NCBI RefSeq assembly: GCF_034119865.1
Contig: NZ_CP139421.1
Location: 2,108,001 to 2,172,000, forward strand
Length of the DNA: 64,000 nt
Direction of reading: 5' to 3'
Origin: Algoriphagus sp. NG3
GTDB taxonomy: Bacteria > Bacteroidota > Bacteroidia > Cytophagales > Cyclobacteriaceae
Of the stretch, positions 11,065-60,099 are shown in pieces; positions within the stretch are counted from its first letter, which is position 1; every line of letters begins with the position of its first letter. Made by a program: the position numbers and the translations under genes. Under the pieces are notes generated by a model. It did not search any database and was not told where the DNA came from. It worked only from the letters and a program-made list of their open reading frames with translations.

Positions 11065-11098
11065 TTGGCCCGGTGATTTTTCCAACAGCCTATCCTGG

Positions 11099-12914
11099 AG
11101 ACACTAACGGGGCGCACAGGGAAAGTCTAAAAGATGAAGTGTGAAAGTTGAAATGCCGGGTGACGGATGCCCGGTGCAGGGTTTAGAGATGAAGAAGAAA
11201 TGGAGAGAGTCTCAGTGGGCACTCTCAGTAGGCAGGGTAACATAGAATCCCATGGGGATGATTCATGTTATTGCCAGCCATTTCAACGGCTGGAATATGG
11301 ATGACACTATGGATCTGGCAAAGTGCCATAGGCACGGACGATAGAGATTACAAATTCCGGTTAAATGGGTAATTCAGCCCTGAAAGGCTGGCACTATAGT
11401 AGCCCAGGGCAAGGAGGCTCGACGCAGGCCTGGGCGAAAGATATAGCAATGAAACGGCGCTGGACGGCTCGAGAATCGGAATACGTTCGAGACACGAACG
11501 GGGCGTGCAGGGAAAGTATAAAAGATGAAGTGTGAAAGCTGAAATGCCGGGTGACGGATGCCGGGTGCAGGGTTTAGAGATGAAGAAGAGATTGGGAGAG
11601 TCTCAGTGGGCAGTCGCAGTCGGCAGGGCAACATAGAATCCCATGGGGATGATTCATGTTATTGCCAGCCGTTTCAACGGCTGGAATATGGATGACACTA
11701 TGGATCTGGCAAAGTGCCATAGGCACGGACGATAGAGATTACAAATTCCGGTTAAATGGGTAATCCAGCCCTGAAAGGCTGGCACTTTAGTAGACCAGGG
11801 CAAGGAGGCTCGACGCAGGCCTGGGCGAAAGATATAGCAATGAAACGGCGCTGGATGGCTCGAGAATCGGAATACGTTCGAGACACGAACGGGGCGCACA
11901 GAGAAAGTATAGAAGATGAAGTGTGAAAGCTGAAATGCCGGGTGACGGATGCTGGGTGCAGGGTTTAGAGATGAAGAAGAGATTGGGAGAGTCTCAGTGG
12001 GCAGTCGCAGTAGGCAGGGCAACATAGAATCCCATGGGGATGATTCATGTTATTGCCAGCCGTTTCAACGGCTGGAATATGGATGACACTATGGATCTGG
12101 CAAAGTGCCATAGGCACGGACGATAGAGATTACAAATTCCGGTTAAATGGGTAATTCAGCCCTGAAAGGCTGGCACTATAGTAGCCCAGGGCAAGGAGGC
12201 TCGACGACGCAGGCCTGGGCGAAAGATATAGCAATGAAACGGCGCTGGACGGCTCGAGAATCGGAATACGTTCGTGACACGAACGGGGCGCATGGGAAAG
12301 TATAAAAGATGAAGTGTGAAAGTTGAAATGCTGGGTGACGGATGCCCGGTGCAGGGTGGAGAAATTAAGAAGAGATTGGGAGAGTCGTAGTGGGCAGTCT
12401 CAGTGGGCAGGGCAACATAGAATCCCATGGGGATGATTCATGTTATTGCCAGCCGTTTCAACGGCTGGAATATGGATGACACTATGGATCTGGCAAAGTG
12501 CCATAGGCACGGACGATAGAGATTACAAATTCCGGTTAAATGGGTAATCCAGCCCTGAAAGGCTGGCACTATAGTAGCCCAGGGCAAGGAGGCTCGACGA
12601 CGCAGGCCTGGGCGAAAGATATAGCAATGAACGGCGCTGGACGGCTCGAGAATCGGAATACGTTCGAGACACGAACGGGGCGCACAGAGAAAGTATAGAA
12701 GATGAAGTGTGAAAGCTGAAATGCCGGGTGACGGATGCTGGGTGCAGGGTTTAGAGATGAAGAAGAGATTGGGAGAGTCTCAGTGGGCAGTCTCAGTAGG
12801 CAGGGCAACATAGAATCCCATGGGGATGATTCATGTTATTGCCAGCCGTTTCAACGGCTGGAATATGGAGGACACTATGGATCTGGAAAAGTGCCATAGG
12901 CACGGACGATAGAG
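11099..12914. repeat. 391-bp tandem repeat array, about 4.7 copies
   Basis: The marker CATAGAATCCCATGG recurs at 11241, 11632, 12023, 12416 and 12809, so the period is 391-393 bp. Copies are nearly identical. Each unit holds a chain of hairpins: CCAGCCGTT/AACGGCTGG, GTGCC-ATA-GGCAC, CCAGCC-CTGAAA-GGCTGG, GCCCAGG...CCTGGGC and a CGTTCG...CGAACG dyad, plus a stretch with a 7-bp period. Open frames inside it repeat with the unit and look non-coding. It occupies the whole gap between the AraC and Crp genes. Confidence 0.92.
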
Positions 12915-15464: not shown

Positions 15465-15650
15465 TCAGTTTTTAGTCGCAGTGGGCAGTACAGTTTTGAG
15501 TCACATCGGGACGGTCCATGTTATTGCCATCCGTTTCAACGGCTAGAATAGTGATGACTAGTTGATTTGGTGAAGTGCCATAGGCACGGACGAAAGAGTC
15601 TCTCCCCGCCGAAGCCCGCGTCCTCACGTACGGCTTGCACTGGATATTTT

Positions 15651-18540
15651 GAATGGAAAGTTACCCTGAAGGGGTAAAACTTTTAATAGCCCCGGGTAAG
15701 GGAGCGATACGAAGTGAGCGGGCGAAACCCGGGGTAACTAATGATCAATCCAATTGTCCTCGGAGCAGGGGGACTTTTTGGAAAAGAGGGTGTGGTCCGA
15801 GGAGTAGTACTAAGCCCAAACGGAGAAATTGAAAGTATGAGACGCAAGCTTCAATTTCACTATTGGGCCGAATAGCTAAGGGGAAGTGTTTTTTCTCCCG
15901 TCCTTTTGCCTTGACGCAAAAGGACCCCGCCACTGCGGGCAGGCAAAAAGTCAAGTCGTGGCAAAGCTTCCTCCGCACGTACCGGCCGCCTGCCCCGCTG
16001 CCACGACCTCCTCCCCGCCTTAAAAACAGAGCCATTTGCTAGCTGACTAATAATCCTTTTTTTACTGGTTACCACTACTCATAGCAGTATCTTAAAAACG
16101 TTTCCAAGCCAAAGCCCGTGTCGTCAGGGCCAGCTGGCACCGGATTATCGAATGGAAAGTTACCCTGAAGGGGTAAAACTCTTAATAGCCCCGGGTAAGG
16201 GAGCGATACGAAGTGAGCGGGCTAAACCCGGGGTAAAGAATTAGGCCCAAACAGGTCTATATGAGAGCCAAGCTTCAATTTCACTATTGAATCGAATAGC
16301 TAAGGACAAGTATTTTTTCTTGTTCTTTTGCCTTAACGCAAAAGAACCAAAAAGTCAAGACGCCAGCAAACTTCCACAGCGCAATACAGCCGCACCCTCG
16401 TGCTGCGTCATCCCTACCCGCCCTAAAATCATAGAATACTGCTAACTGATTGGTTATCTTAATATAGGTGTCCGTGTCCTCATAGACGGCTTGAACTTGA
16501 TATTTTGAATGGAAAGTTACCCTGAAGGGGTAAAACTCTTAATAGCCCCGGGTAAGGGAGCGATACGAAGTGAGTGAGCGAAACCCGGGGTAAAGAATGT
16601 TCAATCCAATTGTCCTCGGAGCAGGGGGATTTTTTGGAAAAGAGGGTGCGGTCCGAGGAGTAGCACCAAAGTTCAAAGAGAGAAAAAGAGAGTTTGGCTT
16701 CAATTTCACTGTTTGCCTGAATGGATAAGGACAAGTACTTTTTCTTGTTCTTTTGGCTTGGCCCAAAAGAACCAAAAGGCCAAGACGCCAGCAAAGCTTC
16801 TCCCCGCTAGCCAACCGCCTGGCTCGCTGCTGCGTCACTCCTCCCCGCCTTAAAAACAGAGACATCTGCTAGCTGACTAATAATCCTGTTTTTAGTGGTT
16901 ACCACTACTCATAGCAGTATCCCAAAAAACGTTTCCCCGCTGAAACCCGTGTCGTCAGGGCCAGCTGGCACCGGATTTTCGAATGAAAAGTTACCCTGAA
17001 GGGGTAAAACTCTTAATAGCCCCGGGTAAGGGAGCGATACGAAGTGAGCGGGCTAAACCCGGGGTAAAGAATTAGGCCCAAACAGGTCTATATGAGAGCC
17101 AAGCTTCAATTTCACTATTGAATCGAATAGCTAAGGACAAGTATTTTTTCTTGTTCTTTTGCCTTAACGCAAAAGAACCCCGCCACGTCGGGCAGGCAAA
17201 AAGTCAAGTCGTGGCAAAGCTTCCACCGCACGTACCAGCCGCCTGCCCCGCTGCCACGACCTCCTCCCCGCCTTAAAAACAGAGACATCTGCTAGCTGAC
17301 TAATAATCCTGTTTTTAGTGGTTACCACTACTCATAGCAGTATCCCAAAAAACGTTTCCCCGCTGAAACCCGTGTCGTCAGGGCCAGCTGGCACCGGATT
17401 TTCGAATGAAAAGTTACCCTGAAGGGGTAAAACTCTTAATAGCCCCGGGTAAGGGAGCGATACGAAGTGAGTGAGCGAAACCCGGGGTAAAGAATGTTCA
17501 ATCCAATTGTCCTCGGAGCAGGGGGATTTTTTGGAAAAGAGGGTGCGGTCCGAGGAGTAGCACCAAAGTTCAAAGAGAGAAAAAGAGAGTTTGGCTTCAA
17601 TTTCACTGTTTGCCTGAATGGATAAGGACAAGTACTTTTTCTTGTTCTTTTGGCTTGGCCCAAAAGAACCAAAAGGCCAAGACGCCAGCAAAGCTTCTCC
17701 CCGCTAGCCAACCGCCTGGCTCGCTGCTGCGTCACTCCTCCCCGCCTTAAAAACAGAGACATCTGCTAGCTGACTAATAATCCTGTTTTTAGTGGTTACC
17801 ACTACTCATAGCAGTATCCCAAAAAACGTTTCCCCGCTGAACCCCGTGTCGTCAGGGCCAGCTGGCACCGGATTTTCGAATGAAAAGTTACCCTGAAGGG
17901 GTAAAACTCTTAATAGCCCCGGGTAAGCGAGCGATACGAAGTGAGCGGGCTAAACCCGGGGTAAAGAATTAGGCCCAAACAGGTCTATATGAGAGCCAAG
18001 CTTCAATTTCACTATTGAATCGAATAGCTAAGGACAAGTATTTTTTCTTGTTCTTTTGCCTTAACGCAAAAGAACCCCGCCACGTCGGGCAGGCAAAAAG
18101 TCAAGTCGTGGCAAAGCTTCCACCGCACGTACCAGCCGCCTGCCCCGCTGCCACGACCTCCTCCCCGCCTTAAAAACAGAGACATCTGCTAGCTGACTAA
18201 TAATCCTGTTTTTAGTGGTTACCACTACTCATAGCAGTATCCCAAAAAACGTTTCCCCGCTGAAACCCGTGTCGTCAGGGCCAGCTGGCACCGGATTTTC
18301 GAATGGAAAGTTACCCTGAAGGGGTAAAACTTTTAATAGCCCCGGGTAAGGGAGCGATACGAAGTGAGCGAGCGAAACCCGGGGTAACTAATGATCAATC
18401 CAATTGTCCTCGGAGCAGGGGGACTTTTTGGAAAAGAGGGTGTGGTCCGAGGAGTAGTACTAAGTCTATACGGAGAAATTGAAACTGGCCAACCTAGCTT
18501 CAATTTCACTATTGAGCCGTATCGATAGTGTTAAGGTACT
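15651..18540. repeat. Array of seven hairpin-chain repeats (two alternating types)
   Basis: The motif TTACCCTGAAGGGGTAA recurs at 15661, 16160, 16517, 16991, 17413, 17888 and 18311. Units alternate between a longer type (about 474 bp, with a CCTCGGA...TCCGAGG hairpin) and a shorter type. The block 16517-17412 is tandemly duplicated as 17413-18310 (offset 897 bp, nearly identical). Each unit carries successive hairpins: TTACCC/GGGTAA, CCCCGGGT/ACCCGGGG and GTTCTTTTGC/GCAAAAGAAC. Frames inside are repeated and look non-coding. Confidence 0.92.
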
Positions 18541-18821
18541 TTCTCTTCCGTCCTTTTGCCTTGGCCCCCTTCATAGGCGGGCAGGCAAAAGGCCAAGGAA
18601 TAGAAATGAAAAGTTTTATATATAAATCGCCTCTACTATTAAGTTTTGAATGTGAAATAATGATAGGTGAAGTAGGAAGAGCAGTCTGAAGACTGCATTG
18701 TCCCAGGGCCAAGTCATGAAAACCAGAACCAGAAGGGGTGGCCCTGCTTTTGAAGGAGCAGGCATTTTTGAAAAGAGTCATATTCAGGTATGTGTTCGAA
18801 ACCCAAATTGTATCAAAGGAG

Positions 18822-21800
18822 CTATCTGCGCCGCCAGCACGGGACAAAATGCCCTGGCATCAGGTAAAGTAGGGCCTGGATCTGTCCGATAGTTACCGGC
18901 ACTATCGGTGCATCCCGTGTGGTCACCACGGACACATTCAGCGAAACGCCATGGACACGCTCAATAGCATCAATCACCGCATGTCCCGTGGGGGAATAGA
19001 TAGTAATCTGTCTTCCCTCCCGGATATCTTCATGATCCTTTGCAAGCATACTCCGGATCTGATCTACTTCCTTGACAGTAGCATCCCTGCCCAGGGCATG
19101 GCGAAGCAGCGAAAAGATCAGGCAGGCGTTCCAGGTGCCGGAGGCATGACCGATCTGGTAGGAGGCAGAAATACCGTCACGCCGGGCACTATCCTGCTCA
19201 TACCTGCGCAGCGGATGCTCGTCTAGGGCAGACGTATCCCTCAGCGCCCTAAAGCCGGAAGAGTCTGCCGGCAGTTTGCCGGCCAGTTTTGTAATCGGGA
19301 TTGTTCCCTTGACCTGCTCCTGCACCGGAAGGCCGGCCATCAGCCCCAGCACCTCCGTACCATCCACGTTTAATTTGCGTGTGATCAGGCGGATTTTTTC
19401 AGAGTTGTCCAGATCACCCCACGAATCGCTATAGGAACGGGGATAAGATACCTCCATCGAGTGCAGGAAGCTATTCAGCGCCATGGCATGGGGAAGGAGA
19501 AGGGAAGCGTTCTTTGTTTCCACCTTCCCTGCGTTTCCTTCAAGTTCCTGAAGTAATTTCAATTCTCCTTCTTCCAGTGGCTTTTCAACAAAGGCCCGGG
19601 CCCGGCTATCTCTTTTCTCCTTGTTTTCGAATTCAACCATATCGGGATGTCTCCGGTACGTTGCGCCTTTCCTTGATTCCCGTCCATCATTCCGCTTCTG
19701 GATTTTTGTGCTGGCAGGCGGTTCGGGAAAAAGGTTGTCCGAAAAGGATGCTGCTGAATTGGCATCATACAGGCTCCAGAAAGCTGTTTCCAGCCGGTCT
19801 TCTTTCAGGATGGTTTTGTGCCTGATTACCTTTCCTTTCTTGTCTTTCTTGGTGAAATCTGTCAGTTTACCCGCCTCATGCGCCAGTAATCTGGCGCGCC
19901 AGGTACCTTCCGAGTTGCCCACCGTACTGGCAGCCTCTGCGGTATGGAGCGGGAGTGCATTGGTAAACTGCAGGTATGCCGAGATCAGCTGCTGCAGCCG
20001 GGTCTTTAGGATCAGTTCCGAGGCTCCCTTTTGCTGTATGATTCGCTGAAAATACTGGAGCTCCACCTGCGAACTGGCCAAAAGTCTTGCCTGGTCGGGC
20101 AGAATAAACGGAACCAGACTCAACAGCGGTGAGGTTTGCGCCTGTACAGACAGCAAAAGTACCGTGTGAACCGCACCTATGAGATCCCTGCCTCCCAAGG
20201 CCGCCCTCAGCGCATCCAGGTGGGCTACCCATGCGGTAGAATGTGCTCCCATACTTCCCACAAACGGGCTGGGGGTCCGTCCCTCCATGCGTACGTCCTC
20301 TACTGTGCCTTCTGCGGAAAACCGTACCTGTACGGCCAGGTCTCCGCCGACAGCCGTTCCTGCCCCACCTTCCAGCAACTGTAGTTCTGGCTGATCGGGA
20401 AGTCCTCCCTTATCGCCAAGTTTTGCCAGCAAATCCAATATATTGTCCGGGACATCCGGGTGTAGTCCCCTTAAAAAATCTCCCAAAACACGGTCATCAT
20501 CCAATTCGGCTGCCACATACGCAATGGGGTAAGCCTTCCGTATCCCATGCAGGAACCCATGGAGGGCTATATCCCAGACCTGGGATCCGGCGGGCTTTCC
20601 GAGGAAATCCGACTGAGACTTTACATATCCTCCCGGGGTATCTGTGGCAAAGAGAGCAGCAAGGTCTTTCCGGATAACTTCAGCCTTTTCCACACCTCCC
20701 CCTTCGACCCTGATCAGGTTGGTCCGCGCATCGCCTTCGGTATCACCGGTAGTTTTGGCTCCCAGCACAGTGGCCAACGGCAGATGGTTGACCAAGTCAA
20801 GGTATGCGTAGATGAAATCCTCCAACCAGACCGTTTTCCCAGACTCATCTTTTCCTTTATACCCTCCTTTCTGCATGGCCTGAGCCCGGTCCATAGCCGG
20901 TTTCAACTTGCCATACTCGCTGAATGGATTGGTATCCACTGGGGCCAGATCCATCTGGGGCGAAGATATGGCCTCGTTCAGCATCCCACCTACTTTTACA
21001 ATGGCCGCATCGAGTGTAAGCCCCTGCAACTGCCTCCGGAGCCCGTCTGTATGGACCACCCATGCTGTAGAGTGCGCCCCCATCGTCCCTGAGTGTGGAG
21101 AGGGGGTACGGCCGGTAAGTTTGATGTCGGCGATTACCCCATTCCCATCTTCGTCTTCTTTAGCAACGATCTGCGCCTGGAACCTCTGTAACACATTCCC
21201 CGAAGGATCACCATTTACTTCCTGAATGCCACCGGACAGCTTGCTCACCGAAACTGTTGCCTTCAACTGGACCGCCTCAGGGAAGATGGGGAAATCGCCG
21301 ATGAAACCTTCGCCTCCTGACTGTAGGCTGGCGCCCGACCCCTTTACAGCAGTTCTTTGCAATGCCTTTTCCCCCATCCGGTCTGCCTCTTCTTCCAGTC
21401 CAAGGTCATCATTGATCCTAACTCCACTTTTCATCTGGTGTGTAGGGGATACCCTCCCCTGCTTCTGTTGCACCACATGCCAGGCCTCATGCGGCAGATG
21501 CTTTTCCTGGCCGGGAGCAATATGGATATCCGTCCCCTGGGCATAAGCATGCGCCTGTAACTGCCCTGGCTTGGTGGAATTGTAGTGTACTTTCACATCA
21601 TCCAGAGTGTATCCTGAAAGAGCTTCTACCCCATTTTTGACCTGATCTGGCAATCCGGTCCGGTTTGGCAAAGGCGAAGCAGCCTTCGTTTGAAGTACGT
21701 GTGAGCCGTTGGATGTGGGAACTCCTGTACCAGCCCCTCCTCCTCCTCCGTTTACCAAACTCGCAAACTGGCGCTGGATAAGTGTCTCCGGACGGTTGTC

Positions 21801-21893
21801 CTTAAACTGAAAAGTATCTGAATCTACAGACCGGGAGGCTGTGACATCGGGTTTTATGGCAGGACCAAAGGCCTTTAGGATCTTTTTACCCAT
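18822..21893 (-). CDS. DUF4157 (eCIS core domain) protein with C-terminal cysteine-protease-like domain
   Basis: A 1023-aa protein. The DUF4157 domain (about 80-180) has the zinc-peptidase motif HEAWH (135-139), a downstream LEEEADRMG (166-174) and the usual NDDLGLE. No signal peptide is seen. Residues about 250-480 and 530-840 are two copies of one module: GRTPSPxxGxMGAHSTAWVxH at 261-281 and 538-558, LPL...TxGxxEG at 371-386 and 647-663, and a FLHxxxxxYP stretch at 447-455 and 809-818. The C-terminus (about 880-1023) has GTWNACLIFSLL with Cys924 and GHFVPCW with His1015, the order and spacing of OTU/papain-like proteases. DUF4157 marks cargo of extracellular contractile injection systems, but no such cluster is in the window. 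Base composition is visibly more G+C-rich than its neighbours. The terminal-domain call is an inference. Confidence 0.75.
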   Translation of the reverse strand: MGKKILKAFGPAIKPDVTASRSVDSDTFQFKDNRPETLIQRQFASLVNGGGGGAGTGVPTSNGSHVLQTKAASPLPNRTGLPDQVKNGVEALSGYTLDDVKVHYNSTKPGQLQAHAYAQGTDIHIAPGQEKHLPHEAWHVVQQKQGRVSPTHQMKSGVRINDDLGLEEEADRMGEKALQRTAVKGSGASLQSGGEGFIGDFPIFPEAVQLKATVSVSKLSGGIQEVNGDPSGNVLQRFQAQIVAKEDEDGNGVIADIKLTGRTPSPHSGTMGAHSTAWVVHTDGLRRQLQGLTLDAAIVKVGGMLNEAISSPQMDLAPVDTNPFSEYGKLKPAMDRAQAMQKGGYKGKDESGKTVWLEDFIYAYLDLVNHLPLATVLGAKTTGDTEGDARTNLIRVEGGGVEKAEVIRKDLAALFATDTPGGYVKSQSDFLGKPAGSQVWDIALHGFLHGIRKAYPIAYVAAELDDDRVLGDFLRGLHPDVPDNILDLLAKLGDKGGLPDQPELQLLEGGAGTAVGGDLAVQVRFSAEGTVEDVRMEGRTPSPFVGSMGAHSTAWVAHLDALRAALGGRDLIGAVHTVLLLSVQAQTSPLLSLVPFILPDQARLLASSQVELQYFQRIIQQKGASELILKTRLQQLISAYLQFTNALPLHTAEAASTVGNSEGTWRARLLAHEAGKLTDFTKKDKKGKVIRHKTILKEDRLETAFWSLYDANSAASFSDNLFPEPPASTKIQKRNDGRESRKGATYRRHPDMVEFENKEKRDSRARAFVEKPLEEGELKLLQELEGNAGKVETKNASLLLPHAMALNSFLHSMEVSYPRSYSDSWGDLDNSEKIRLITRKLNVDGTEVLGLMAGLPVQEQVKGTIPITKLAGKLPADSSGFRALRDTSALDEHPLRRYEQDSARRDGISASYQIGHASGTWNACLIFSLLRHALGRDATVKEVDQIRSMLAKDHEDIREGRQITIYSPTGHAVIDAIERVHGVSLNVSVVTTRDAPIVPVTIGQIQALLYLMPGHFVPCWRRR

Positions 21894-22769: not shown

Positions 22770-23245
22770 GAATGGAAAGTTACCCAGAAGGGGTTAAAGA
22801 ATGGTCAATCCAATTGGCCTCGGAGCAGTTTTTTCTGGAAAAGAGGGTGCGATCCGAGGAATGGCACCAAGGTCCAAACAGGTATATGAAAAGTATGAGA
22901 CCCAAGCTTCAATTTCACTATTGGGCCGAATAGCTAAGGGGAAGTTTTTCTTCCGTCCTTTTGGCTTAGCCCCTTCTCCAGAGGCGGGCAGGGAAAAGAC
23001 CAAGACGCCAGCCTACCCGCAGCCCGGCTCCTTCACTAAAACAGTCCACTGGACTGTTTCTTTACGCTTGGCCCTCCTTCAAGCTGGCCCCAGCCTAAAT
23101 TCTTTCACTGAAAGAATTTTTAACGGCTTGTCCTACCGCACCTACCAGCCGCTTGCCCCGCTGCCACGATCTCCTCCCCGACTTAAAAACAGAGACATCT
23201 GCTACCTGACTAATAATCCTGTTTTTACTGGTTACCACTACTCAT
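22770..23245. repeat. Diverged copy of the hairpin-chain repeat
   Basis: One further unit of the 15.65-18.5 kb family, starting GTTACCCAGAAGGGG at 22779 and running through AATTGGCCTCGGAGCAG, TTCAATTTCACTATTGG and the terminal GGTTACCACTACTCATA. It has lost the CCCCGGGT hairpin and gained an inserted segment around 23040-23120. With the large array it brackets the DUF4157/NIPSNAP genes. The open frame across it has repeat-derived sequence and is not called. Confidence 0.85.
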
Positions 23246-23327
23246 AACAGAAATAAATAGGCCACATCGCATCTGCCTATCCATGCATCATTACTAAGAA
23301 TAAGTAGGCATCACCTACAATACCTCT

Positions 23328-44459: not shown

Positions 44460-44755
44460 TTGTTTGGTTAGGAGATGGGAGACGTGGGATGTCCGCTGTT
44501 GGTGTTTAGGGTTAAAGGTTGGAAAGTTTGAAGTTAGAAGTTAGAAGTTAGAAATTGGAAAGTTCGAAGGTTTGAAAGTTAAAGGAACGGTACTGCTAAC
44601 TGCGACTGATGACTGCGACTGATCACTTGGACTGACTTACTTTTTACTTGTCACCTCCTACTATCTTGGCTCTGGGTTCTTGCTTCTCGGCTCTTGATTC
44701 TAGCTACTTGATACTTGATACTGATATCTGAGACTGCTTATTGCTTAACAATCCC
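44460..44755. repeat. Mosaic period-7 array
   Basis: Runs of related heptamers, for example GTTAGAA GTTAGAA (from about 44534), then ACTGCGACTGAT blocks, then CTCTTGATTCTAGCTACTTG and ACTTGAT ACTTGAT. The purine-rich half comes first and the pyrimidine-rich half follows. Fills the 44306-44767 gap. Confidence 0.8.
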
Positions 44756-44767
44756 TTTTCAGTCTTC

Positions 44768-45274
44768 TCAACTACCAAAGACCAGAATCCCCTGAATATC
44801 CCCGGGATCTTCTTCGAGAATGGATACTTCCACTTTCCGCTGTACTTTCTCGTAGGTTTTTTCCTTGAGGAATTCCAGGTATTCCTTGTCCAGATCTTTG
44901 CCGATAAGGATCATCTGAATAGTTCCGGAGTCTATGCCCTTCGCATAATCCCCCACTATATAAGCCATCTGCACCTCTCCCATCCTGTTGACGATGCGCT
45001 CCATCAGGTCATCCAGTCCCAGGAACTTGGATACCATACCCTTGATTTCGTCAAAGAAGGGGTGTCCGGTATTCGCCTTATACATCTTGGTCTTACCCTC
45101 GTCTTCCGAGACCAGCAGACCGGCTTCGGTAAGGCGGTTCAGTTCCACCCTTACCGAGTTGGTGGACTCATCAAATTCCTTGGCCAGTGACCTCAGGTAC
45201 CCGGTATTGGTATGGGAAAAGAACTTCAGGAGAAGTTTGATGCGTGTTTTGGAAGTGACTAGGGAATCGAGCAA
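44768..45274 (-). CDS. Winged-helix (ArsR-like) transcriptional regulator
   Basis: A 168-aa protein. The N-terminal half (about 5-75) is a wHTH: TSKTRIKLLLKFFSHTNTGY, LRSLAKEFDESTNSVRVELN as helices 2-3 and LLVSEDEGKTKMYKAN as the wing. The C-terminal half (about 95-168; AYIVGDYAKGIDSGTIQMILIG) resembles a degenerate nucleotidyltransferase-like fold. Similar proteins stand at the edge of polysaccharide clusters in Bacteroidota, so it is a candidate regulator of the glycan operon (inference). Confidence 0.75.
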   Translation of the reverse strand: MLDSLVTSKTRIKLLLKFFSHTNTGYLRSLAKEFDESTNSVRVELNRLTEAGLLVSEDEGKTKMYKANTGHPFFDEIKGMVSKFLGLDDLMERIVNRMGEVQMAYIVGDYAKGIDSGTIQMILIGKDLDKEYLEFLKEKTYEKVQRKVEVSILEEDPGDIQGILVFGS

Positions 45275-45289
45275 GGGAGGGAGGGGCGG

Positions 45290-45680
45290 TGTATGGAGTG
45301 GTAAGTCGTAAGTGGTAAGTGGTAAGTGGTAAGTAGTTAGTGGTCAGTGGTATGTAGTCAGTGGTCAGTAGTCAGTAGTCAGTGGTCAGTGGTCAGTGGT
45401 TAAATGTTAAATGTTAAATACAGTGCTGATAACTTCAACTGGGATGCTTCTTACTTTTCACCTCTTACTATATTGGGGTTGGATGTCCGGTGTTGGAAGT
45501 GGTAAGTAGTAAGTGGTAAGTGGTAAGTGGTAAGTTGTTAAAGAAAGTCTGAAAGCTAGAGTGAGAAAGCTGAAAGCCTGAAATCCAACCTATTCTTGAT
45601 TCTTACCTACGGCAGGCAAGCTTGATTCTAGCTACTTGATATTGATAACTTTTGCTATTGTTGGATGTTGGAGGACCGGA
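45290..45680. repeat. Mosaic period-7 array with GTGGTAA/GTGGTCA core
   Basis: At 45296-45420 heptamers succeed one another: GTGGTAA several times, then GTGGTCA, AGTAGTC variants and TTAAATG TTAAATG TTAAATA. Further period-7 words (GTAAGTG type) run from 45490 to 45540. A GCAGGCAAGCTTG hairpin fragment interrupts it at about 45610. No gene. Confidence 0.85.
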
Positions 45681-45806
45681 GAAGGGAGACAGAAATTTCT
45701 GCTCCGCCACGGCGGATCGAAATGACCCGAAATTTAACCAATGTTGAGTTTCCTCTCAATAGGCTCCGTTCCAAATGACTCGAAATATTAATAGGCTTGC
45801 TTTAGA

Positions 45807-45827
45807 CCGTTCGTGTGACACGAACGG
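45807..45827. repeat. CCGTTCGTG / CACGAACGG dispersed hairpin
   Basis: A 9-bp perfect stem with a TGA loop. Further copies with an AGA loop lie at 41876-41896 and 62844-62864, and partial ones in the 391-bp array and at about 50661. All are intergenic. Confidence 0.85.
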
Positions 45828-45851
45828 TGGCGGAGAATTGGTTGAGTTTTG

Positions 45852-45961
45852 TGCGCACGAGAGGATTCGAACCTCCACACTACGTATAGCACTTTTAATA
45901 ATTGGATCCACTGATTAATTTGTTGCCTCACCAGGGCTCTAACCTGATCCTAAGTGTGGGC
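45852..45961 (-). pseudogene. tRNA-like remnant
   Basis: Read leftward, this 110-base stretch has an acceptor-like 5' end GCCCACA, a D-arm-like CTTAGGATCAGGTTAGAGC, a long disordered middle, a good T-arm GGAGG-TTCGAAT-CCTCT (45860-45876) and a 3' acceptor CGTGCGC. The acceptor halves pair with two mismatches and the length is far too great, so it is a decayed or composite tRNA rather than a working gene. Confidence 0.45.
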
Positions 45962-46011
45962 CAGCTAGAACCGGGCAATTAAATCAACTACTTAAGTTTT
46001 TCTTGGAAAAA

Positions 46012-46045
46012 GTACCCAGAGCCGGAGTCGAACCTGCTACCTAAT
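46012..46045 (-). pseudogene. tRNA T-arm fragment
   Basis: On the minus strand GCAGG-TTCGACT-CCGGC followed by TCTGGGTAC resembles the T-arm and 3' acceptor strand of a tRNA (one stem mismatch). A third T-loop-like piece, GCCCGG-TTCTAGC-TGG, is at 45961-45976. The 5' halves are missing. Confidence 0.4.
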
Positions 46046-46490
46046 TCGAAGCTACTATTCGTATTTCGAAATTGTCAACTGATCATTATAAACTCCAAAT
46101 ATAGTATTTCTTTGTTCTGACCTCTAATCTTTGAGTACTATATTCACTGTTGTTACCGGCAATGCCTTTAGCACTAATTATTTGTTCTCTTTGTGCCTTT
46201 GTGGTTAAAAGAAATTGAAACTTATCATGCTTTTGGCACTCCGATGTAAGGCTATTTTATTTATCCCCTGAATTTTACCTAACTGCTTCCAGTTGGTATT
46301 TGTCTCTCAGACCAAACACAGCTTCGCCCTTTCACTCCCAGATGATTTAAGCTGGCGGGTAAGGGGGAGATTCTGCTAATCAGGTTATTGGAATCATTTT
46401 GAAAGAGATTTCTCCCTTCGCTCGAAATGACCGCACAAAAGACTGAGTAATAAATTTACTCGGTTGGATTTAAAAAGCAAATTATGGGAG
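46046..46490. other. Intergenic, mostly featureless
   Basis: CTTTGTGCCTTTGTGGTTAA (46190) belongs to the dispersed 'TTAACCACA...' family (also at 15334), and GAGATTTCTCCCTTCGCTCG with CGAAATGACC (46408-46432) is another dispersed repeat. No gene or terminator is seen. Confidence 0.6.
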
Positions 46491-46494
46491 AGAT

Positions 46495-47015
46495 AATGTT
46501 GGGTGAGGGAAGTGGGAAGTGGGATGTTGGAGGTGGGAGGTGGGAGGTTGGAAGATTGAAAAAGGTTGTAAAGTCGTAAAGTTGTAAGGTGCGGTACTGA
46601 TCACTGCGACTGATGACTGGGACTGATATACTTCTTACTTTTCACCTCTACTATCTTGGTTCTAAGATCTTGGCTCTTGAATTTTGGCTCTTGCTTCTTG
46701 GCTCTTGCTTCTTGATACTTGATACTGTTGGGGGTCCGGTGTTGGAGGTTGGAAGATTGAAAAAGGTTGTAAAGTCGTAAAGTTGTAAGGTGCGGTACTG
46801 ATCACTGCGACTGATAACTGCGACTGATCACTGGGACTGATATACTTCTTACTTTTCACCTCTACTATCTTGGCTCTAAGATCTTGGTTCTTGCTCTTGA
46901 TTCTAGCTACTTGATACTTGATACTGACATCTGCGACTGGCGACTGGGAAGGTTGGAAGTTGGAGGCGGGAAGTGGTTAGTGGTTAGTGGTAATTGTTAA
47001 GTAGTAAGTGGTCAG
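46495..47015. repeat. Two successive mosaic period-7 composite repeats
   Basis: Two copies of the same order: GTGGGAA/GTGGGAG/GTTGGAA heptamers, AAAGGTTGTAAAGTCGTAAA, GGTACTGATCACTGCGACTG, TTACTTTTCACCTCTACTAT, then TTGGCTC TTGCTTC TTGGCTC TTGCTTC TTGATAC TTGATAC. First copy about 46505-46735, second about 46736-46935, then a third purine-rich start (GTGGTTA GTGGTTA GTGGTAA). Confidence 0.85.
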
Positions 47016-47022
47016 TAGTAAG

Positions 47023-49086
47023 TCAGGGTGTCAAAAAAGCAGGGTCTAGCTCGTTAATGAGTGCATTTCCGTTTTTGTTGATGTAATAAAACTTACCCTC
47101 CTCATAGCTCAAAGATTCGGTGAAAATATCGTAGTTGTCGGTTTTACCGAGGTATTTCACCGTTAAGCTGGCCGGGCTGAACAGGTAGAATTCGTTCCCA
47201 TTACTAAGATAAACCCCGGATTCTGTGGAGAACGCCCTAAAGCTGACGTCAAATTTCCCGGGAAAGGTATGCATGGTTTCCCAGGTATTAGTCTCGGAAT
47301 TATAACGATCAAGCTTATCCATCACCTTATCTTTGGGCGCATCATAGTATTGGATGAACCTGAGATTTTGTCCCTGCCACTCAAAGATTTTTCCTACATC
47401 ATATAAGCCAGGCTCAGACAAGGTATTCCTTCTTATCAATTTCCATTCGGAATTATAAATTCCGTTCCAGGCCCAAAGTTCCTCTATATACCCATCTCCA
47501 TGTAAATAACTTACCTCGTAATACATATGGTCACCTGAGACAAAAGATCCTAAAACCCTACCACTCATGGGAAGGTAACCTGCCGAGGTGCTATTTCCAG
47601 AGTTGGGATCATATTGAAAAAGTGAAACAGCATTGACCAGACCTCCATGGGAAGAATTGTTGGAAAAGTAATACTTCCCATTTAGAAAGGCCCTGAATAC
47701 ACTTACTTCAGAAAAGCTGTGGGGCAAGTTTCCTTTATAAGTGGTACGTTTTCCTGGAACATCGTAGATAAAGGAACCTAAATCGCTCAACACATGCATC
47801 TTTTTATTATGGGTAAAAGACATGGCACTAAACAATAAAGTCTCCTCGGAGTCAGTATCCAGGTAACTTACCGGATAAGCCGGCAGATTATACGTAATCT
47901 CCAAGGGCACCTTCCCCTTGACGCCTTGATTATATCCATAGAGATTGAAAGTCCTGCCCGATATAGGCGCCGAGAGATGGAAGGCGAATGAGATAGACTC
48001 GGCGTCTGCTTTGGTCACATTGGCGACCACCTGGTCTGGGGTGTCAATTATCAGGTAATTACCATTTTTCACAAAAGCATTAAAATCCCTGGCATTTGCG
48101 GTGACGGTTTGGTTATACGTAGTTATGGTGCGTTTTTGATCTGGAGCAAATTCCGCTGTGCGGATTTTGACATGTCTGATGGTGTACGTACTATCCCGTA
48201 TGTTTATCCCCAATGTGGGCTCGTTGGTGTTTGGGACGAATTTCGGGCTAAAGGAAATCTTGTCGTCTTCCACATTATGAATGGTATAGCTACCGTAAAG
48301 CTCTGTGTCTTCCAGACCGTTGACCTGGTAGTTGCTGGAAAAAAGGTAGTTACCCGGTAATTCCCAGATTTCCGCCATAGACACCTCGGTATATTCCGGA
48401 AATACTGCAGGTCTGAATTTGAATTTTTGGTGAATCTCTGAGTGATTTCCGTTCATCCTAAGCTTAAGCACAAACCCTTCTGTCCTATATTGTCCACCGA
48501 AAAAAATATCGATGGGGATAGTATAGCTAAAGCTGCTGTCGGTAAGATTAAAGAGTTCTGCATTCATCATGTTGAACTTAACATTAATGCTATCCAGACT
48601 GGCAGGAAGGTATTTGCCTCTGACAGTCACCGTATCGCCATAATAGACCTGCGCAGGAAAACTGCTTCCGAGATACTGAAAGCCGGGGGGATCACCGCCT
48701 ACAAAGCGGTATATTGGGGAATAAGTAATGTCGTTTTGAGTACGGACAAATGCCTGTATGTAGTAATTTTTGTCCTTTACCAGAATCTTCTCAAAAGAGG
48801 ATTCAAATCTTTCGCCGGGGTCCCCTTCTGCTTGGTGGATCCGGTCGCTGGAATAAAACAGAGAAGACTCATCAGAAAAGAGAAAACCATACTCAAGAAT
48901 AGGAAGAGATCCATTTTCCTTGATTTGGGCAGAAATGGCAAAACGTCCCGGTTCCACTTCTTCAATCCCGACAACTTCCAAAAAAGGAATAATCAGTGGT
49001 TCTTCTTCCTTGTCTTTCTTGCAGGAGGTGGACAGCAATACCGTTAGGATAAGGATGAGGATTTTGAGATAGCTATTAAGTTGCAT
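47023..49086 (-). CDS. Surface lipoprotein with IPT/TIG-like and kelch-like regions
   Basis: A 687-aa lipoprotein: signal peptide with lipobox LLSTSC (Cys22), followed by KKDKEEE, an acidic export-type tail usual in surface lipoproteins. Residues about 35-125 look fibronectin-like (YGFLFSDESS...YYIQAFVRT), 130-215 IPT/TIG-like (FPAQVYYGDTVTVRGKYLP), and from about 400 repeated blades suggest a kelch-type beta-propeller (GKRTTYKGNLPHSF, YFSNNSSHGG, RYNSETNTWETMHTFPG, YLSNGNEFYLFSP). Function unknown; likely surface binding. Confidence 0.75.
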   Translation of the reverse strand: MQLNSYLKILILILTVLLSTSCKKDKEEEPLIIPFLEVVGIEEVEPGRFAISAQIKENGSLPILEYGFLFSDESSLFYSSDRIHQAEGDPGERFESSFEKILVKDKNYYIQAFVRTQNDITYSPIYRFVGGDPPGFQYLGSSFPAQVYYGDTVTVRGKYLPASLDSINVKFNMMNAELFNLTDSSFSYTIPIDIFFGGQYRTEGFVLKLRMNGNHSEIHQKFKFRPAVFPEYTEVSMAEIWELPGNYLFSSNYQVNGLEDTELYGSYTIHNVEDDKISFSPKFVPNTNEPTLGINIRDSTYTIRHVKIRTAEFAPDQKRTITTYNQTVTANARDFNAFVKNGNYLIIDTPDQVVANVTKADAESISFAFHLSAPISGRTFNLYGYNQGVKGKVPLEITYNLPAYPVSYLDTDSEETLLFSAMSFTHNKKMHVLSDLGSFIYDVPGKRTTYKGNLPHSFSEVSVFRAFLNGKYYFSNNSSHGGLVNAVSLFQYDPNSGNSTSAGYLPMSGRVLGSFVSGDHMYYEVSYLHGDGYIEELWAWNGIYNSEWKLIRRNTLSEPGLYDVGKIFEWQGQNLRFIQYYDAPKDKVMDKLDRYNSETNTWETMHTFPGKFDVSFRAFSTESGVYLSNGNEFYLFSPASLTVKYLGKTDNYDIFTESLSYEEGKFYYINKNGNALINELDPAFLTP

Positions 49087-49168
49087 GAGACAAAAAGAAA
49101 TGGGCGGGTGTGTTTTAAAAAAAGAGCCACTTTACATCAAAGGGCTCTTGGGGAATGCATAAAACAAT

Positions 49169-49684
49169 TTATCTGGTGAGGGTAAAATCCCCGTCAATTT
49201 CAGTCACACTCTCAATCCCATAGAATGAACTTGAAGTGGAAGTTTGCATTTTCATCACGAGCTCAGTTGCTGTTTGTGATATAATTTCTGCGGTATCTGT
49301 TCCGTTTTCATTATGAAAATGAATCTTAGTGCCCTCAAGCTCAAAAGTACCCGAATAGACATGTCCATCTACAGGAACAATCATAGGCATATCAGGAAAC
49401 GATTCATTGTGTATAACCATTTTATAACTTCCTGTCACATTCACTTTGTCCTGAATAAAATTGAATATCATATCAACATCAGTTCCTGTTCCCGTGATGT
49501 TTTCCTTAGAAAAAAGCTCCCCATCCTGAGTGATAGTTTGTGTACCTACATAGTCCACCGACTGAAGATTCCAGCTTCCTTCAAGATCGGTAGAGGTTAT
49601 GGGATCAGTGTCATCATTGCCACAGGATAATAAAAACCCTATACTGATTATTAAGGGGATAATTCGTAAAAGTCTGTAATTCAT
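49169..49684 (-). CDS. Lipocalin-like lipoprotein
   Basis: A 171-aa lipoprotein with lipobox FLLSC (Cys21) and GNDDTDP after it. LEGSWNLQSVDYVGTQTI is the start of the Bacteroidota 'lipocalin-like' domain (W near the first strand), followed by alternating beta strands and the final FTLTR. Probably sits in the outer membrane; ligand unknown. It lies 82 bases upstream of the 687-aa lipoprotein gene on the same strand, so the two may be cotranscribed. Confidence 0.75.
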   Translation of the reverse strand: MNYRLLRIIPLIISIGFLLSCGNDDTDPITSTDLEGSWNLQSVDYVGTQTITQDGELFSKENITGTGTDVDMIFNFIQDKVNVTGSYKMVIHNESFPDMPMIVPVDGHVYSGTFELEGTKIHFHNENGTDTAEIISQTATELVMKMQTSTSSSFYGIESVTEIDGDFTLTR

Positions 49685-49809
49685 AAAAGATAGTTTTGGT
49701 TTGATTTTCGAATTAAATAATTAAAAATGAAACTTTACTATTAAAAAATTAAACAAACCATAAATCACAGATTTTCAATTGATTAAATATTATTCATATA
49801 CGCAATTCT

Positions 49810-49974
49810 GCCAGTAGCCAAATTCCATTAAGCTTCACCTCGACTTCGCTCGGTGCCCGTTAATTTTGGTTTTTGGAGAGGAGGGGAAAATGCGGCTGCA
49901 GCCGCATTTTCCCCTCCTCTCCAACATCAAATCCGTTGGCCGAGCGAAGTCGAGGCCATTGTGATCTACTGGCA
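49810..49974. repeat. Nested inverted repeat with a 52-bp perfect palindrome
   Basis: 49874-49925 is a perfect 52-bp palindrome centred on CTGCAG, made of a purine arm (GGAGAGGAGGGGAAAATGCG) and its complement. Outside it CCTCGACTTCGCTCGG (49838-49853) pairs perfectly with 49941-49956, and GCCAGTAG (49810-49817) with 49967-49974. The unpaired pieces in between are short. It resembles a MITE or a cruciform-forming element. No gene ends at it. Confidence 0.9.
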
Positions 49975-50109
49975 AAGAAGCGTATAATCAGATTAAATAT
50001 TAAGCTTATACAAGTACCCTTGCTGATTACCGTACATACAATTATGCAGTCGGAACCACGGGAGCACTTCGACGACCGAAGGAAGGAGAAATCTCATTTG
50101 TAGTCGGAA

Positions 50110-50990
50110 CGTTGGACATTAAGTATCAGATGTCTGGTGCGCGGTGTGCGGCGACAGAAGTTGGAAATCTAAAAACTAAAGTCAAAAAGCTGAAAACCTA
50201 GAATCCAACCTACTCTTGACTCTCGGCTCTTGATTCTCGGCTCTTGATTCTAGCTACTTGATACTGATGAATGCGGCTGGGAAGTGGGAGGTTTGGAAGT
50301 GGGAAGTGGTTAGTGGTCAGTGGTCAGTGGTAAGTTGTTAAGAAAGTCTGAAAGCTGAAGTGAGAAAGCTGAAAGTGCTGATAATTTCTACTGGGAAACT
50401 TTTTACTTCTCACCTCGTGCTATCTTGGTTCTAAGGTCTTGGATCTTGCTTCTTACTTCTCGGCTCTAAGATCCTACCTCCAGTAGGCAAGCTTGATTCT
50501 AGCTACTTGATACTTGATACTGACATCTGCGACCGGAGACTGGGAAGGTTGGAAGTTGGAGGTTGGGTGTCGGCTGTCGGGTGTCAGGAGAAAAGGGACG
50601 GAAGAAAAGCTCGATGGCATACATCCACACTCCATGTTTACTGAAGGCTGGGATTAAACCGTTCGTGTGAACGGGGGTGGAAGTGAGTTTGAAGTACCAA
50701 AATGTACAAGCAGTCTGAAGACTGCATTGACATAGGTACGAGTCATGAGACTCGCACCAACTGGATGTTGGGAGTGGGAAGTGGGATGTTGGAAGGTTGG
50801 AAGATGCGGTACTGATCACTGCGACTGATGGCCGGGACTGACATACTTTTCACCTCCTACTATCTTGGTTCTAAGGTCCTACCTCCGGTAGGCAAGCTTG
50901 GCTCTTGCTTCTTGCTTCTTGGCTCTAAGATCCTACCTCCGGTAGGCAAGCTTGAATCTTAGTTCTTGTACCTCTGTCTAGCATACAGGA
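50110..50990. repeat. Mosaic period-7 composite repeats
   Basis: Three composite copies with the order seen elsewhere: GTGGGAA/GTGGTCA words, ACTGATCACTGCGACTGATG, TTTTCACCTCCTACTATC, CTCTTGATTC, then ACTTGATACTTGATACTG. CCTACCTCCGGTAGGCAAG-type mini-hairpins are inserted at about 50475, 50880 and 50934. A GCAGTCTGAAGACTGC palindrome lies at about 50710 (also near 18680). No gene. Confidence 0.82.
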
Positions 50991-50992
50991 AA

Positions 50993-51028
50993 TAAAAAAA
51001 GCCGTCACAAGCAGAGGTTGTGACGGCT
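50993..51028 (-). terminator. Rho-independent terminator of the 182-aa barrel gene
   Basis: On the minus strand GCCGTCACAA and TTGTGACGGC form a perfect 10-bp stem with a 7-base loop, followed by TTTTTTTATT. It lies about 43 bases after the stop. Confidence 0.88.
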
Positions 51029-51070
51029 GTATCAGAAATTGAGGACTTTTGCTCCTTTGATGCTTAAGAA

Positions 51071-51619
51071 TTATGGAAGCTTGAAGGCTACACCCAGGTT
51101 CAGGTAAGAGACACCATATCCCAATTCGGCAAAACCGCCAATATTGTCGGAGAAATAGTATCTACCGCCCACGTAAAGGCTAAGCCCGAGGTTATTGCCA
51201 TAATTGTTTATGGAAGATCCGGAGTTGTCTGAATAATTAACGATATAATAACCAAGCATAAGGCCACCGTAAATATCAAGCTTGTCCACGTTGTGTCCAT
51301 TGAAATGATAGGCACTACGTACACCTAGGAGTGTATAATTCCATTTGGACTGATACCCAGAACCATAATTGTAACGGTACCCTTTGTACCCTATATATCC
51401 ACCTAGGCTGATCACGCCCGGGCCGCCGACGTCCCAAATACCTTGTTCATACTGGGCGCTGATAGCTGGCACCTGGCTACTGTAACTGAATCCACTACCT
51501 ACCGCACTTCCCAGCCCTAATCCTACAGAAACCACCTTGCTTCCCTGCTGGAATTCCTGTCCGAAACTGACAAAGGGTACTGCAATCACGAGTAAAAAAA
51601 CTACTAAATAATTTTTCAT
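51071..51619 (-). CDS. Outer-membrane beta-barrel protein
   Basis: A 182-aa protein with a signal peptide (about 1-20, VVFLLVIAVPFVSFGQ) and eight or so amphipathic strands: VVSVGLGLGSAVG, LGGYIGYKGYRYNYG, YTLLGVRSAYHF, LDIYGGLMLGYYIVNY, LSLYVGGRYYFS, GGFAELGYGVSYLNLGVAFKLP. It is a small OmpX/OmpW-like barrel without a named family. It has its own terminator and stands between repeat blocks. Confidence 0.75.
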   Translation of the reverse strand: MKNYLVVFLLVIAVPFVSFGQEFQQGSKVVSVGLGLGSAVGSGFSYSSQVPAISAQYEQGIWDVGGPGVISLGGYIGYKGYRYNYGSGYQSKWNYTLLGVRSAYHFNGHNVDKLDIYGGLMLGYYIVNYSDNSGSSINNYGNNLGLSLYVGGRYYFSDNIGGFAELGYGVSYLNLGVAFKLP

Positions 51620-51699
51620 GCTGTTATAAAGTTTTGTTCGTGCAAAAGTACAAATAACTGGATTATTCCAGCATTTTTTGATGTTTTAAAATTGTGGGG

Positions 51700-53055
51700 G
51701 GGGTGGGATGTTGGGTGTCGGGTGTTAGATGACCGATGTTGGGTGTAGGATGACTGCAGACTGCAGTGGGGAGTGGGAAGTGGTTAAAAGTTAAATGTTA
51801 ATAGTTAAAGGTTAAATACAGTGCTGATAACTTCAACTAGGGGACTTCTTACTTTCTTTTCACCTCGTACTATATTGGGGTTGGAAGTTGGATGTCCGGT
51901 GTCGGGTGTCCGGTGTGGGAAATAGGAAGATGAAAGGTGAAAGGTGGAAGGTGGAAGGTTCAGTACTGATCACTGCGACTGATCACTGCGACTGGGACTA
52001 CTATACTTTTCACTTGTCCCCTCCTACTATCTTGGCTCTAAGATCTTGGCTCTTGGTTCTTGACTCCTACCTCCGGTAGGCAAGCTTGATACTATAATCT
52101 AGCTACTTAATTCTAGCTACTTGATACTGATATCTGCGGAAGTGGGAAGTGAGGAGCGGGATATTTGGCTGGTGGTTAGGTTAAACGTTAATAGTTAAAG
52201 GTTAACCTTTAGAGTTTAGTGAGAATTTAGGTTGATTATTGATCTTCAAAATCCTGTGAAAACGGAGCAATGCCGTAGGCATGGCAGATTTTATAGCGGC
52301 GGGTTTTGACCCGGCGCAAAAAAGACAAAAGGCCATTACCCTTCCCGATATCGCTATGCTCATCGGGACAGGCAGGACATGAGGTATAGTGATAAAACAA
52401 AGGCTTGTCCCGAGGAGGTGTACAGCGTTTGAGAATCCATAGTAAGTGGCGGCAGTATCCAGTCGCAGTGGGCAGGAATAAAGTCTGAAACCTGAAGGAG
52501 ACCGGAGACGGGTGTTGAAGGCAGTGGTAAGTGGTAAGTTGTTAAAAGTTAAAAGTTGGAGGTGGGAGGTGGGAAGTGGGAAGTAGGAAGTAGGAAGGTT
52601 GTAAGGTACGGTACTGATCACTGCGACTGACAACTGGGACTGACAACTGGAAAGGTTGGAGGTCGTAAAGTTGGAAAGTTTGAAGGTGCTGGATACTGAG
52701 ATTGGGGTACTTCTTACTTTTCACCTCGTACTATATTGGCTCTAAGATCCTACCTCCAGTAGGCAAGCTTGACTCTTGGTTCTTACTTCTCGGCTCTAAC
52801 ATCTTGATTCTAGCTACTTGATACTTGATACTGATACCTGTGACATGAAAGGTTGGATGTCCGGTGTCGGGTGTCCGGTGTGGGAAGTGGGAAGTTGGAG
52901 GTTGTAAGGTACAGTACTGATCACTGCGACTGATCACTGTGACTGATATACTTTTTACTTATCAACTCGTACTATTTTAGCTCTGTCATCTTCGTTTTAA
53001 CATCTCGGTTCTTGACTCTCGGCTCTCGGCTCTTGCTCTTGATACTTGATAATTA
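51700..53055. repeat. Mosaic period-7 arrays with an embedded hairpin repeat
   Basis: Composite period-7 repeats at about 51700-52190, 52490-52850 and 52850-53050, for example GTTAAAA GTTAAAA GTTGGAG GTGGGAG GTGGGAA (52540-52580) and CTCTCGG CTCTCGG CTCTTGC (53018). At 52258-52325 sits a hairpin repeat with AATGCCGTAGGCATG and GCGGCGGGTTTTGACCCGGC. CCTACCTCCGGTAGGCAAG inserts at 52067 and 52748. No gene. Confidence 0.82.
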
Positions 53056-53091
53056 CTACTGTTGACCTACGTTTGGGGACAAGGTAAACCC

Positions 53092-53124
53092 AAAAAAGCC
53101 TCCACATCTTCTGGATATGGAGGC
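53092..53124 (-). terminator. Rho-independent terminator of the susCD operon
   Basis: On the minus strand GCCTCCA and TGGAGGC (with further TATCC pairing inside) are followed by TTTTTTGGG. It lies about 25 bases after the susD stop. Confidence 0.8.
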
Positions 53125-53148
53125 AGTATTTAGTGAATGGCTCTGGCT

Positions 53149-54843: not shown

Positions 54844-54860
54844 GATGCGGTGATTTGAGA

Positions 54861-58256: not shown

Positions 58257-58348
58257 GTGTTTATATTTTGATTTTCAATGGTCACATGGAATCTCACATC
58301 ACAGATAATCATTCCAGTGCTTGACGCTTGAGCCATGCTCGATTTCAT
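58253..58348 (-). CDS. Leader ORF copy nearest susC
   Basis: A 31-codon ORF starting MKSSMAQASSTGMIICDV and ending NQNINT, with its TGA overlapping the susC ATG (ATGA). It is an exact product of a 92-bp tandem unit and shares start context (AAAATATAAACAC before the ATG) with susC. It could couple susC translation or be a by-product of duplication of the susC 5' region. Confidence 0.45.
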   Translation of the reverse strand: MKSSMAQASSTGMIICDVRFHVTIENQNINT

Positions 58349-58440
58349 GTGTTTATATTTTGATTTTCAATGGTCACATGGAATCTCACATCACAGATAA
58401 TCATTCCAGTGCTTGACGCTTGAGTTATGTTCGATTTCAT
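58345..58440 (-). CDS. Leader ORF, second copy
   Basis: The same 31-codon ORF (MKSNITQASSTGMIICDV...NQNINT, four residues differ at most), again ending in an ATGA overlap with the next leader ORF. The 92-bp unit length equals 96 coding bases minus a 4-base overlap, which keeps each copy in a coupled chain. Confidence 0.45.
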   Translation of the reverse strand: MKSNITQASSTGMIICDVRFHVTIENQNINT

Positions 58441-58451
58441 GTGTATATAAT

Positions 58452-58553
58452 TTAATTTTCATTGGTCACATGGAATCCCTGCCTGCCGGCAGGCAGGTCG
58501 CATATATTATGATCATTCCAGCGTGTGTGTCCGGTAGGCAGGCTCGATTTCAT
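58452..58553 (-). CDS. Leader ORF, diverged first copy with inserted GC-rich palindrome
   Basis: A 33-codon ORF starting MKSSLPTGHTRW and ending FHVTNEN. It shares the ends of the leader unit, but its middle is replaced by a segment holding CCTGCCTGCCGGCAGGCAGG (a 20-bp palindrome). It stops 11 bases before the next leader ATG and so is not overlapped. It starts 14 bases after the small upstream gene. Confidence 0.3.
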   Translation of the reverse strand: MKSSLPTGHTRWNDHNICDLPAGRQGFHVTNEN

Positions 58554-58567
58554 GTGTGCTCTATTAA

Positions 58568-58798: not shown

Positions 58799-58874
58799 TC
58801 AAAAAAGGACTACCTAGCCACTGATTACCAGTTTGTTAATTTATGGGAGCCGTTATCAGGAAGTTGATAACAAT

Positions 58875-60025: not shown

Positions 60026-60099
60026 AGATAGTAGCAACAAAAGGCCAAGTAAGCACTGTGCCGTTCTTCGTGTCGTCACAGATGGCTAGCACAGGATGC

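Follow-up and report, generated by a model that had tools for sequence, protein, structure and literature searches.

The 1023-aa product of an open reading frame at 18822..21893 (minus strand) of the window, by which we mean the whole 64,000-nucleotide stretch that was analysed, is most likely a cargo (effector) of an extracellular contractile injection system (eCIS), a phage-tail-like injection machine, and is encoded away from that machine. The frame starts with ATG and contains no internal stops, and its length, its DUF4157 domain and its conserved leader rule out a chance open reading frame. In the reading that we favour and consider probable, the protein is cargo of one of two eCIS clusters in the genome (cluster B), comes from a separate locus, is loaded into the tube by its leader, and combines a doubled unit with a C-terminal papain/OTU-like cysteine hydrolase. 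The first ~190 residues, with a FQFxDNRPExxxQR signal and DUF4157, would load the cargo into the particle tube, the middle would consist of two diverged copies of one ~270-350-aa unit, and the ~150-aa C-terminal domain with Cys924 and His1015 would act as the hydrolase on a target-cell protein after injection.

Leader, domain layout and genomic setting

The only Pfam family found in the protein was eCIS_core (DUF4157) at residues 81-146 (21456..21653, minus strand, as for all parts of the gene), with an E value of 1.1e-8 and 35.6 bits against a cut-off of 22. The initial annotation had proposed such a domain with the motifs HEAWH and LEEEADRMG, both of which are present in the translation. Ahead of it, a motif search located FQFKDNRPETLIQRQ at residues 28-42 (21768..21812), a candidate loading signal. 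One copy of a duplicated unit lies at residues 240-505 (20379..21176; motif GRTPSPHSGTMGAHSTAW) and a second at residues 518-866 (19296..20342; motif GRTPSPFVGSMGAHSTAW), and the C-terminal Cys...His domain, a papain/OTU-like candidate, spans residues 867-1023 (18825..19295). The modular effector architecture suggested earlier is thus borne out as a leader, a doubled unit and an exchangeable C-terminus. NCBIfam, PADLOC and PDB sequence searches with the 1023-aa protein gave nothing useful, and scans of contigs with the full protein and with its C-terminus returned no relatives, these scans reaching close relatives only and perhaps leaving out the genome itself.

The genome, a single 5.89-Mb contig, encodes three DUF4157 proteins and two eCIS clusters. 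Cluster A, near 5.14 Mb, adjoins a DUF4157 protein of 1314 aa with an Endonuclea_NS_2 match. Cluster B, at 2.0467-2.0740 Mb and outside the window, adjoins a DUF4157 protein of 585 aa and encodes a sheath, two gp19-like tubes, CIS_tube, base_V, CIS_TMP, an AAA protein and a GH18 protein. The 1023-aa gene lies at 2.1268-2.1299 Mb, 52.8 kb beyond the end of cluster B, and is therefore not within about ten genes of an eCIS operon. The initial annotation saw no eCIS genes nearby, which is correct inside the window, where 19 proteins of clusters A and B (tblastn, E<=1e-6) matched only the leader of the gene itself and, weakly, a TonB receptor at 57.9-58.1 kb. It does not hold genome-wide, as the two clusters show, and the leader points to cluster B. 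According to the available portion of PMC11297309, 88% of known eCIS toxins are found within ten genes of the operon, and such a position is typical, not obligatory, for cargo.

The evidence that ties the protein to cluster B is the leader, which it has in common with a cargo-like gene within an eCIS cluster of the same genome. It is 54% identical to the 585-aa cargo of cluster B over 164 aa, compared to 28% over 74 aa for the cargo of cluster A, and cluster A was rejected as the delivery machine because this distance is too great. Leader matches occurred in 17 of 97 genomes, namely its own, those of 12 congeners, whose best matches are 45-67% identical, and four others from the order. The C-termini of the leader-bearing relatives are varied, a conserved leader with exchangeable C-termini being the pattern of polymorphic toxins, and the tail of the 1023-aa protein was found by blastp among the fetched frames only in copies of its own gene. 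When the whole of L031, a relative described below, was searched against plasmids, 12 records matched, in the leader region only. Cluster B is conserved almost gene for gene in genomes G408 and G423 (sheath 88 and 84% and one tube protein 96 and 95%, respectively), and in both a leader-bearing effector follows immediately after the GH18 gene. Around the effectors with the doubled unit in G408, G423 and G652, a search with 19 cluster proteins (tblastn, E<=1e-6) gave no eCIS genes over about 18-27 kb in each direction.

The FQFxDNRPExxxQRK-like motif was present in its strict form in 5 of 15 frames that were distinct around HEAWH and in four further frames without HEAWH. Among these, L024 retains an alignment along the leader. 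DUF4157 was not found in the other three, by Pfam for L062 and by genome search for L067 and a 533-aa frame in L007, and each of them begins with a motif similar to FQFKDNRPETLIQRQ. We infer that the motif, independently of DUF4157, may serve as a loading signal. The 533-aa protein (L007:10842-12443, with FQFVDKRHETIASRK) adjoins the 585-aa DUF4157 protein of cluster B in the same genome and is possibly a second cargo of that cluster. L067 (G000:C1:1031353-1031448), a frame of 225 aa that contains FQFLDNRPEAIAQRK and matches the leader weakly (E=0.07), is remote from both eCIS clusters and is possibly a further stand-alone cargo or a remnant.

Antibacterial toxins often have an immunity gene next to them. 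No such gene was recognised beside the 1023-aa gene, in agreement with the initial annotation, and a small unrecognised one may be present; the nearest features are a NIPSNAP gene and DNA repeats. The repeat units, of several hundred bases and ~75-97% related, flank the effector gene and its NIPSNAP neighbour (15608-18597 and 22770-23261) and might be the marks of a cassette; a further partial copy covers 60069-60304, and a fragment lies next to cluster B (L007:4084-4185). A tandem array with a period of 391 (4.6 copies, 95% matches) occupies 11098-12914, and related pieces of ~98 bases occur at 15499 and beside cluster B at L007:3783 and 4282. The window also contains numerous short arrays with periods of 7, 14 or 21 (e.g., AAGTGGT) at 44511-62205 and a near-perfect duplication of 483 bases at 58928-59862, and it gave no Rfam match at gathering score.

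The doubled middle unit

Two GRTPSP...MGAHSTAWV modules had been noted earlier, and both are present, with the motif Met at residues 271 and 548. They turned out to be part of something longer: the GRTPSP...MGAHSTAW motif is the conserved heart of the duplicated unit, whose two copies are 35% identical. Among 72 genomes of the genus, a profile of the unit (A1) matched in 4, with two matches in each, and among 395 genomes of the phylum it matched in its own genome and, weakly and a single time, in G282 (E=0.0057), where the protein concerned likewise has DUF4157. A fifth two-copy protein was added by G652. The two-unit proteins thus number five in five genomes, its own included, and every protein with clear matches has two copies (5 of 5). 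In all ten copies, the motif residues G, R, M, G, H and A, together with one L and one P, are invariant, while the copies are 16-37% identical. G408, G423 and G424 have first copies that form one group (support 0.998), and the doubling is therefore old there.

In an alternative reading, toxicity would reside in the doubled GR..MGxHxxA unit, and the Cys-His domain would have an accessory role, perhaps as a protease that cuts the protein itself and so releases the units in the target, or as a further warhead. The constant doubling, its age in these three genomes and the invariant residues all favour this idea, as do L032, L033 and a 919-aa protein of G652, which have units without the Cys-His domain: the profile of that domain gave no match in G423, and its matches in G424 and G652 lie in a different gene. 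Nevertheless, we consider it rather unlikely. The unit has no known fold or family: it has no Pfam match, an AlphaFold model from two sequences reached a pLDDT of 53 overall with 80 residues at 70-90, and a fold search with that model against the PDB gave nothing at E<=0.001. Moreover, the Cys-His domain is present in L056 and L052, where the unit motif is missing, and it is therefore not tied to the units. In G652, the two-unit protein and the Cys-His protein are encoded by neighbouring genes. Since three of the five two-unit proteins have no Cys-His domain, this domain is an exchangeable part. Homologues without both Cys924 and His1015 had been named beforehand as an observation that would speak against the protease-like reading, and these three do lack the residues, along with the entire domain, but wherever the domain is present, both are kept.

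The C-terminal Cys-His domain

Returning to the favoured reading, with a C-terminal cysteine hydrolase, the candidate nucleophile Cys924 (codon at 19122..19124) and the candidate general base His1015 (18849..18851) are located in the C-terminus as the initial annotation described, and the only cysteines of the protein, Cys924 and Cys1019, are both in the tail (residues 867-1023). Direct searches with the C-terminus gave no clear relative. Against the phylum, it matched its own genome and one other, G125 (E=0.0011), which was judged to be noise as a frame with stops, and the same judgement was made of six Rhizobium plasmid records found by tblastn (E>=0.03). There were no tblastn matches to phages with the C-terminus, to plasmids or phages with the L052 C-terminal domain, or to plasmids with those of L057 and L056. 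Viral contigs searched with the C-terminus and profiles A1, A5 and A6 gave no relatives, the L031 C-terminus matched in none of 395 genomes (a draw that excluded its source genome), and PDB sequence searches gave nothing at E<0.1.

Relatives came instead through profiles. The two-unit relative L031 shows NNCLFDAIA...NHF close to its end, but taken alone it is not significantly similar to the tail: in pairwise alignment, 1325 of 2000 (local) and 684 of 2000 (global) shuffles scored at least as well. A profile of the 1023-aa protein and L031 (A2) found L052 in G424 (E=0.018) among 72 genomes. With L052 added (A4, 145 genomes), it found L056 in G652 (E=9.6e-14) and L057 in G501 (E=3.7e-4). With these two added as well (A5), it matched only G652 and its own genome among 128 genomes of the family, and among 96 relatives of G501 it also matched L077, L079 and L080. 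Two of the seven places found with A4, L058 (E=0.02) and L059 (E=0.03), were weak and were dropped, as was L078 (E=0.039) from the five places found among the relatives of G501. In L058 (G506), a 1093-aa frame, GHYVPYG precedes GTNNCLYDALA, an order reminiscent of permuted OTUs in what is a weak match. The Cys-His family as we define it consists of the tail, L031, L052, L056, L057, L077, L079 and L080.

Against an HMM of L057, L077, L079 and L080, from which it was left out, the tail scored 24.3 bits (E=7.1e-6 in 5001 sequences) and no shuffle of 5000 did as well. The same was true against all seven other members (14.9 bits, E=0.0053) and against L057 and L077 (19.1 bits); the match to L079 and L080 alone was weak (8.5 bits, 2 of 5000 shuffles as good), and that to four members before the others were found gave 9.4 bits with 1 of 5000. 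When 901 fetched frames were searched with the seven-member HMM, the tail had an E value of 0.033 and the next non-family frame one of 1.1. Against the three clearest members (L031, L052 and L056), the score was at chance level (-1.0 bits, equalled or exceeded by 1404 of 5000 shuffles), and the probable membership of the tail therefore rests chiefly on the L057 subgroup, the link running mainly through L057 and L077. L057 itself was discovered through a profile that included the tail, but its membership holds in a test without it, with an E value of 4.3e-9 against L031, L052, L056, L079 and L080; against L031, L052 and L056 alone it scored 9.2 bits (2 of 5000 shuffles as good). The subgroups also join without the tail through L079, which matched the HMM of L031, L052 and L056 at E=2e-8, and against the L057 group, L056 had an E value of 2.9e-7, L031 one of 0.011, and L052 a score of 6.0 bits with 8 of 5000 shuffles.

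Both Cys and His are kept in all eight members, 84-92 residues apart (91 in the 1023-aa protein), and an Asn just precedes the Cys in seven of them (NACL here). The strict signature N-x-C-L...H-[FY], drawn after the fact from this family, arose in 1 of 100,000 shuffles of the C-terminus and its loose form in 233; among 197 frames of at least 150 aa (those with identical first 60 residues counted once), the strict form occurred in one, L009, which is a fragment of the 1023-aa gene. Other effector-like proteins have the domain at their C-terminus or close to it, and in L031, L056 and L052 it is accompanied by the leader or its signal. Next to the long Cys-His effectors of G501 and G552 lies a gene for a 290-aa protein (L063:5297-6169), 91% identical in L077; next to the paralogue L080, a relative (L080:12-641) shares 41% identity with it over 210 aa. 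It is possibly an immunity or adaptor gene, and a search at E<=0.01 gave no relative of it in the window or in L031, L062 or L064.

A papain-like cysteine hydrolase would fit a conserved Cys followed by H[FY] at this distance at or near the end of effector-like proteins, and the family supports a putative papain/OTU-like enzyme. It is improbable, in our view, that the C-terminus is not an enzyme, that the two residues are there by chance and that the effector works otherwise or has decayed. The lack of significant similarity to the clearest members taken alone would agree with that view, as would a single-sequence AlphaFold model of residues 880-1023 with a pLDDT of only 40.4 (pTM 0.26), too low to speak for any fold, but the open frame, the leave-out match and the retention of Cys and His throughout the family count against it.

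The initial annotation had offered an OTU-like deubiquitinase or a papain-type fold, and of this the C-terminal Cys...His domain stands, as part of a wider family that keeps both residues, while the OTU part has lost ground. The 1023-aa protein and the family members had no OTU (PF02338) or papain Pfam match at the cut-off; a PF02338 search over 194 genomes of the order was silent, but so were its controls, making it uninformative. The sole papain-type match was a nonsignificant one of one in five family members to Peptidase_C36 (PF05415; E=0.028), and the sole Pfam match of the tail was Gag_FV_central, below the cut-off (E=0.033). Peptidase_C36 is a plant-virus peptidase. Two residues after the His, no D, E or N was found in any of the eight members, which have V, T, V, V, Q, Q, Q and Q. 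An acid is usual there in OTUs, the A20 type placing it elsewhere (PMC7396840, in part). Lacking both a PF02338 match and this residue, the C-terminus appears less likely to belong to the OTUs, and because of the latter, deubiquitination is one option among several for the predicted enzyme, with ubiquitin as a substrate so far unsupported. By its NCL motif, OTU is presumably its nearest named relative.

The target may be bacterial or eukaryotic. We hold it possible, if short of probable, that the domain is indeed papain-like but has the activity of a deamidase or peptidase directed at a bacterial target, instead of that of a deubiquitinase. This would agree with a catalytic-type Cys and His that are kept when the OTU acid position is not, with the dyad-only papain-like enzymes in the portion seen of PMC10318531, which describes Cys-His dyads among virulence-associated and OTU-like enzymes and treats deubiquitinases and deamidases in one section, and with the killing of Escherichia coli by expressed AlgoCIS Cgo1 (PMC8894135, in part). 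On the other hand, no immunity gene was recognised beside the gene, and a bacterial target is conjecture.

Comparison with known systems

If the favoured reading is true, eCIS cargo must be sought genome-wide by its leader, beyond the surroundings of the machine. Candidate residues would also become available for two effector domains that lack Pfam names, namely Cys924 and His1015 in one and the GR and MGxH core in the other. More tentatively, we propose that eCIS cargo genes away from the machine carry two such domains. One would be the unit in two diverged copies, whose invariant G-R...M-G-x-H-x-x-A core maybe forms an active site of its own, and the other a papain-like Cys-His clade distinct from known OTUs; the two would occur fused, neighbouring or alone, as if they were co-operating warheads. 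A literature search, which is not proof of absence, found no report of the doubled unit or of an OTU-like eCIS cargo in the texts as far as they were covered, and neither "OTU" nor "deubiquitin" appears as a term in the covered main texts of PMC11297309 and PMC8213781.

The bacterial OTU deubiquitinases, in the part of PMC7396840 consulted, resemble the Cys-His family in having the Cys before the His and an Asn before the Cys, and low mutual identity is usual among them; the family differs from them in the Pfam match and in the acid at His+2. A close parallel by description is AlgoCIS of Algoriphagus machipongonensis (PMC8894135, in part), whose Cgo1 and Cgo2 sit in the tube lumen and have a similar N-terminus and DUF4157 with different C-termini, like the present protein with its N-terminal region, DUF4157 and variable C-terminus. 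In contrast, Cgo1 and Cgo2 are encoded inside the eCIS cluster, and the 1023-aa gene is not. The eCIS-associated toxins (EATs) with DUF4157, in the parts seen of PMC8213781 and PMC11297309, are likewise similar in their N-terminal DUF4157, long linker and toxin-like C-terminus, many of them without a recognised immunity gene. Unlike the EATs, the 1023-aa protein combines a doubled unit and a Cys-His family without Pfam names and is not encoded beside an eCIS operon, and it is a fairly unusual member of the DUF4157 class of eCIS cargo.
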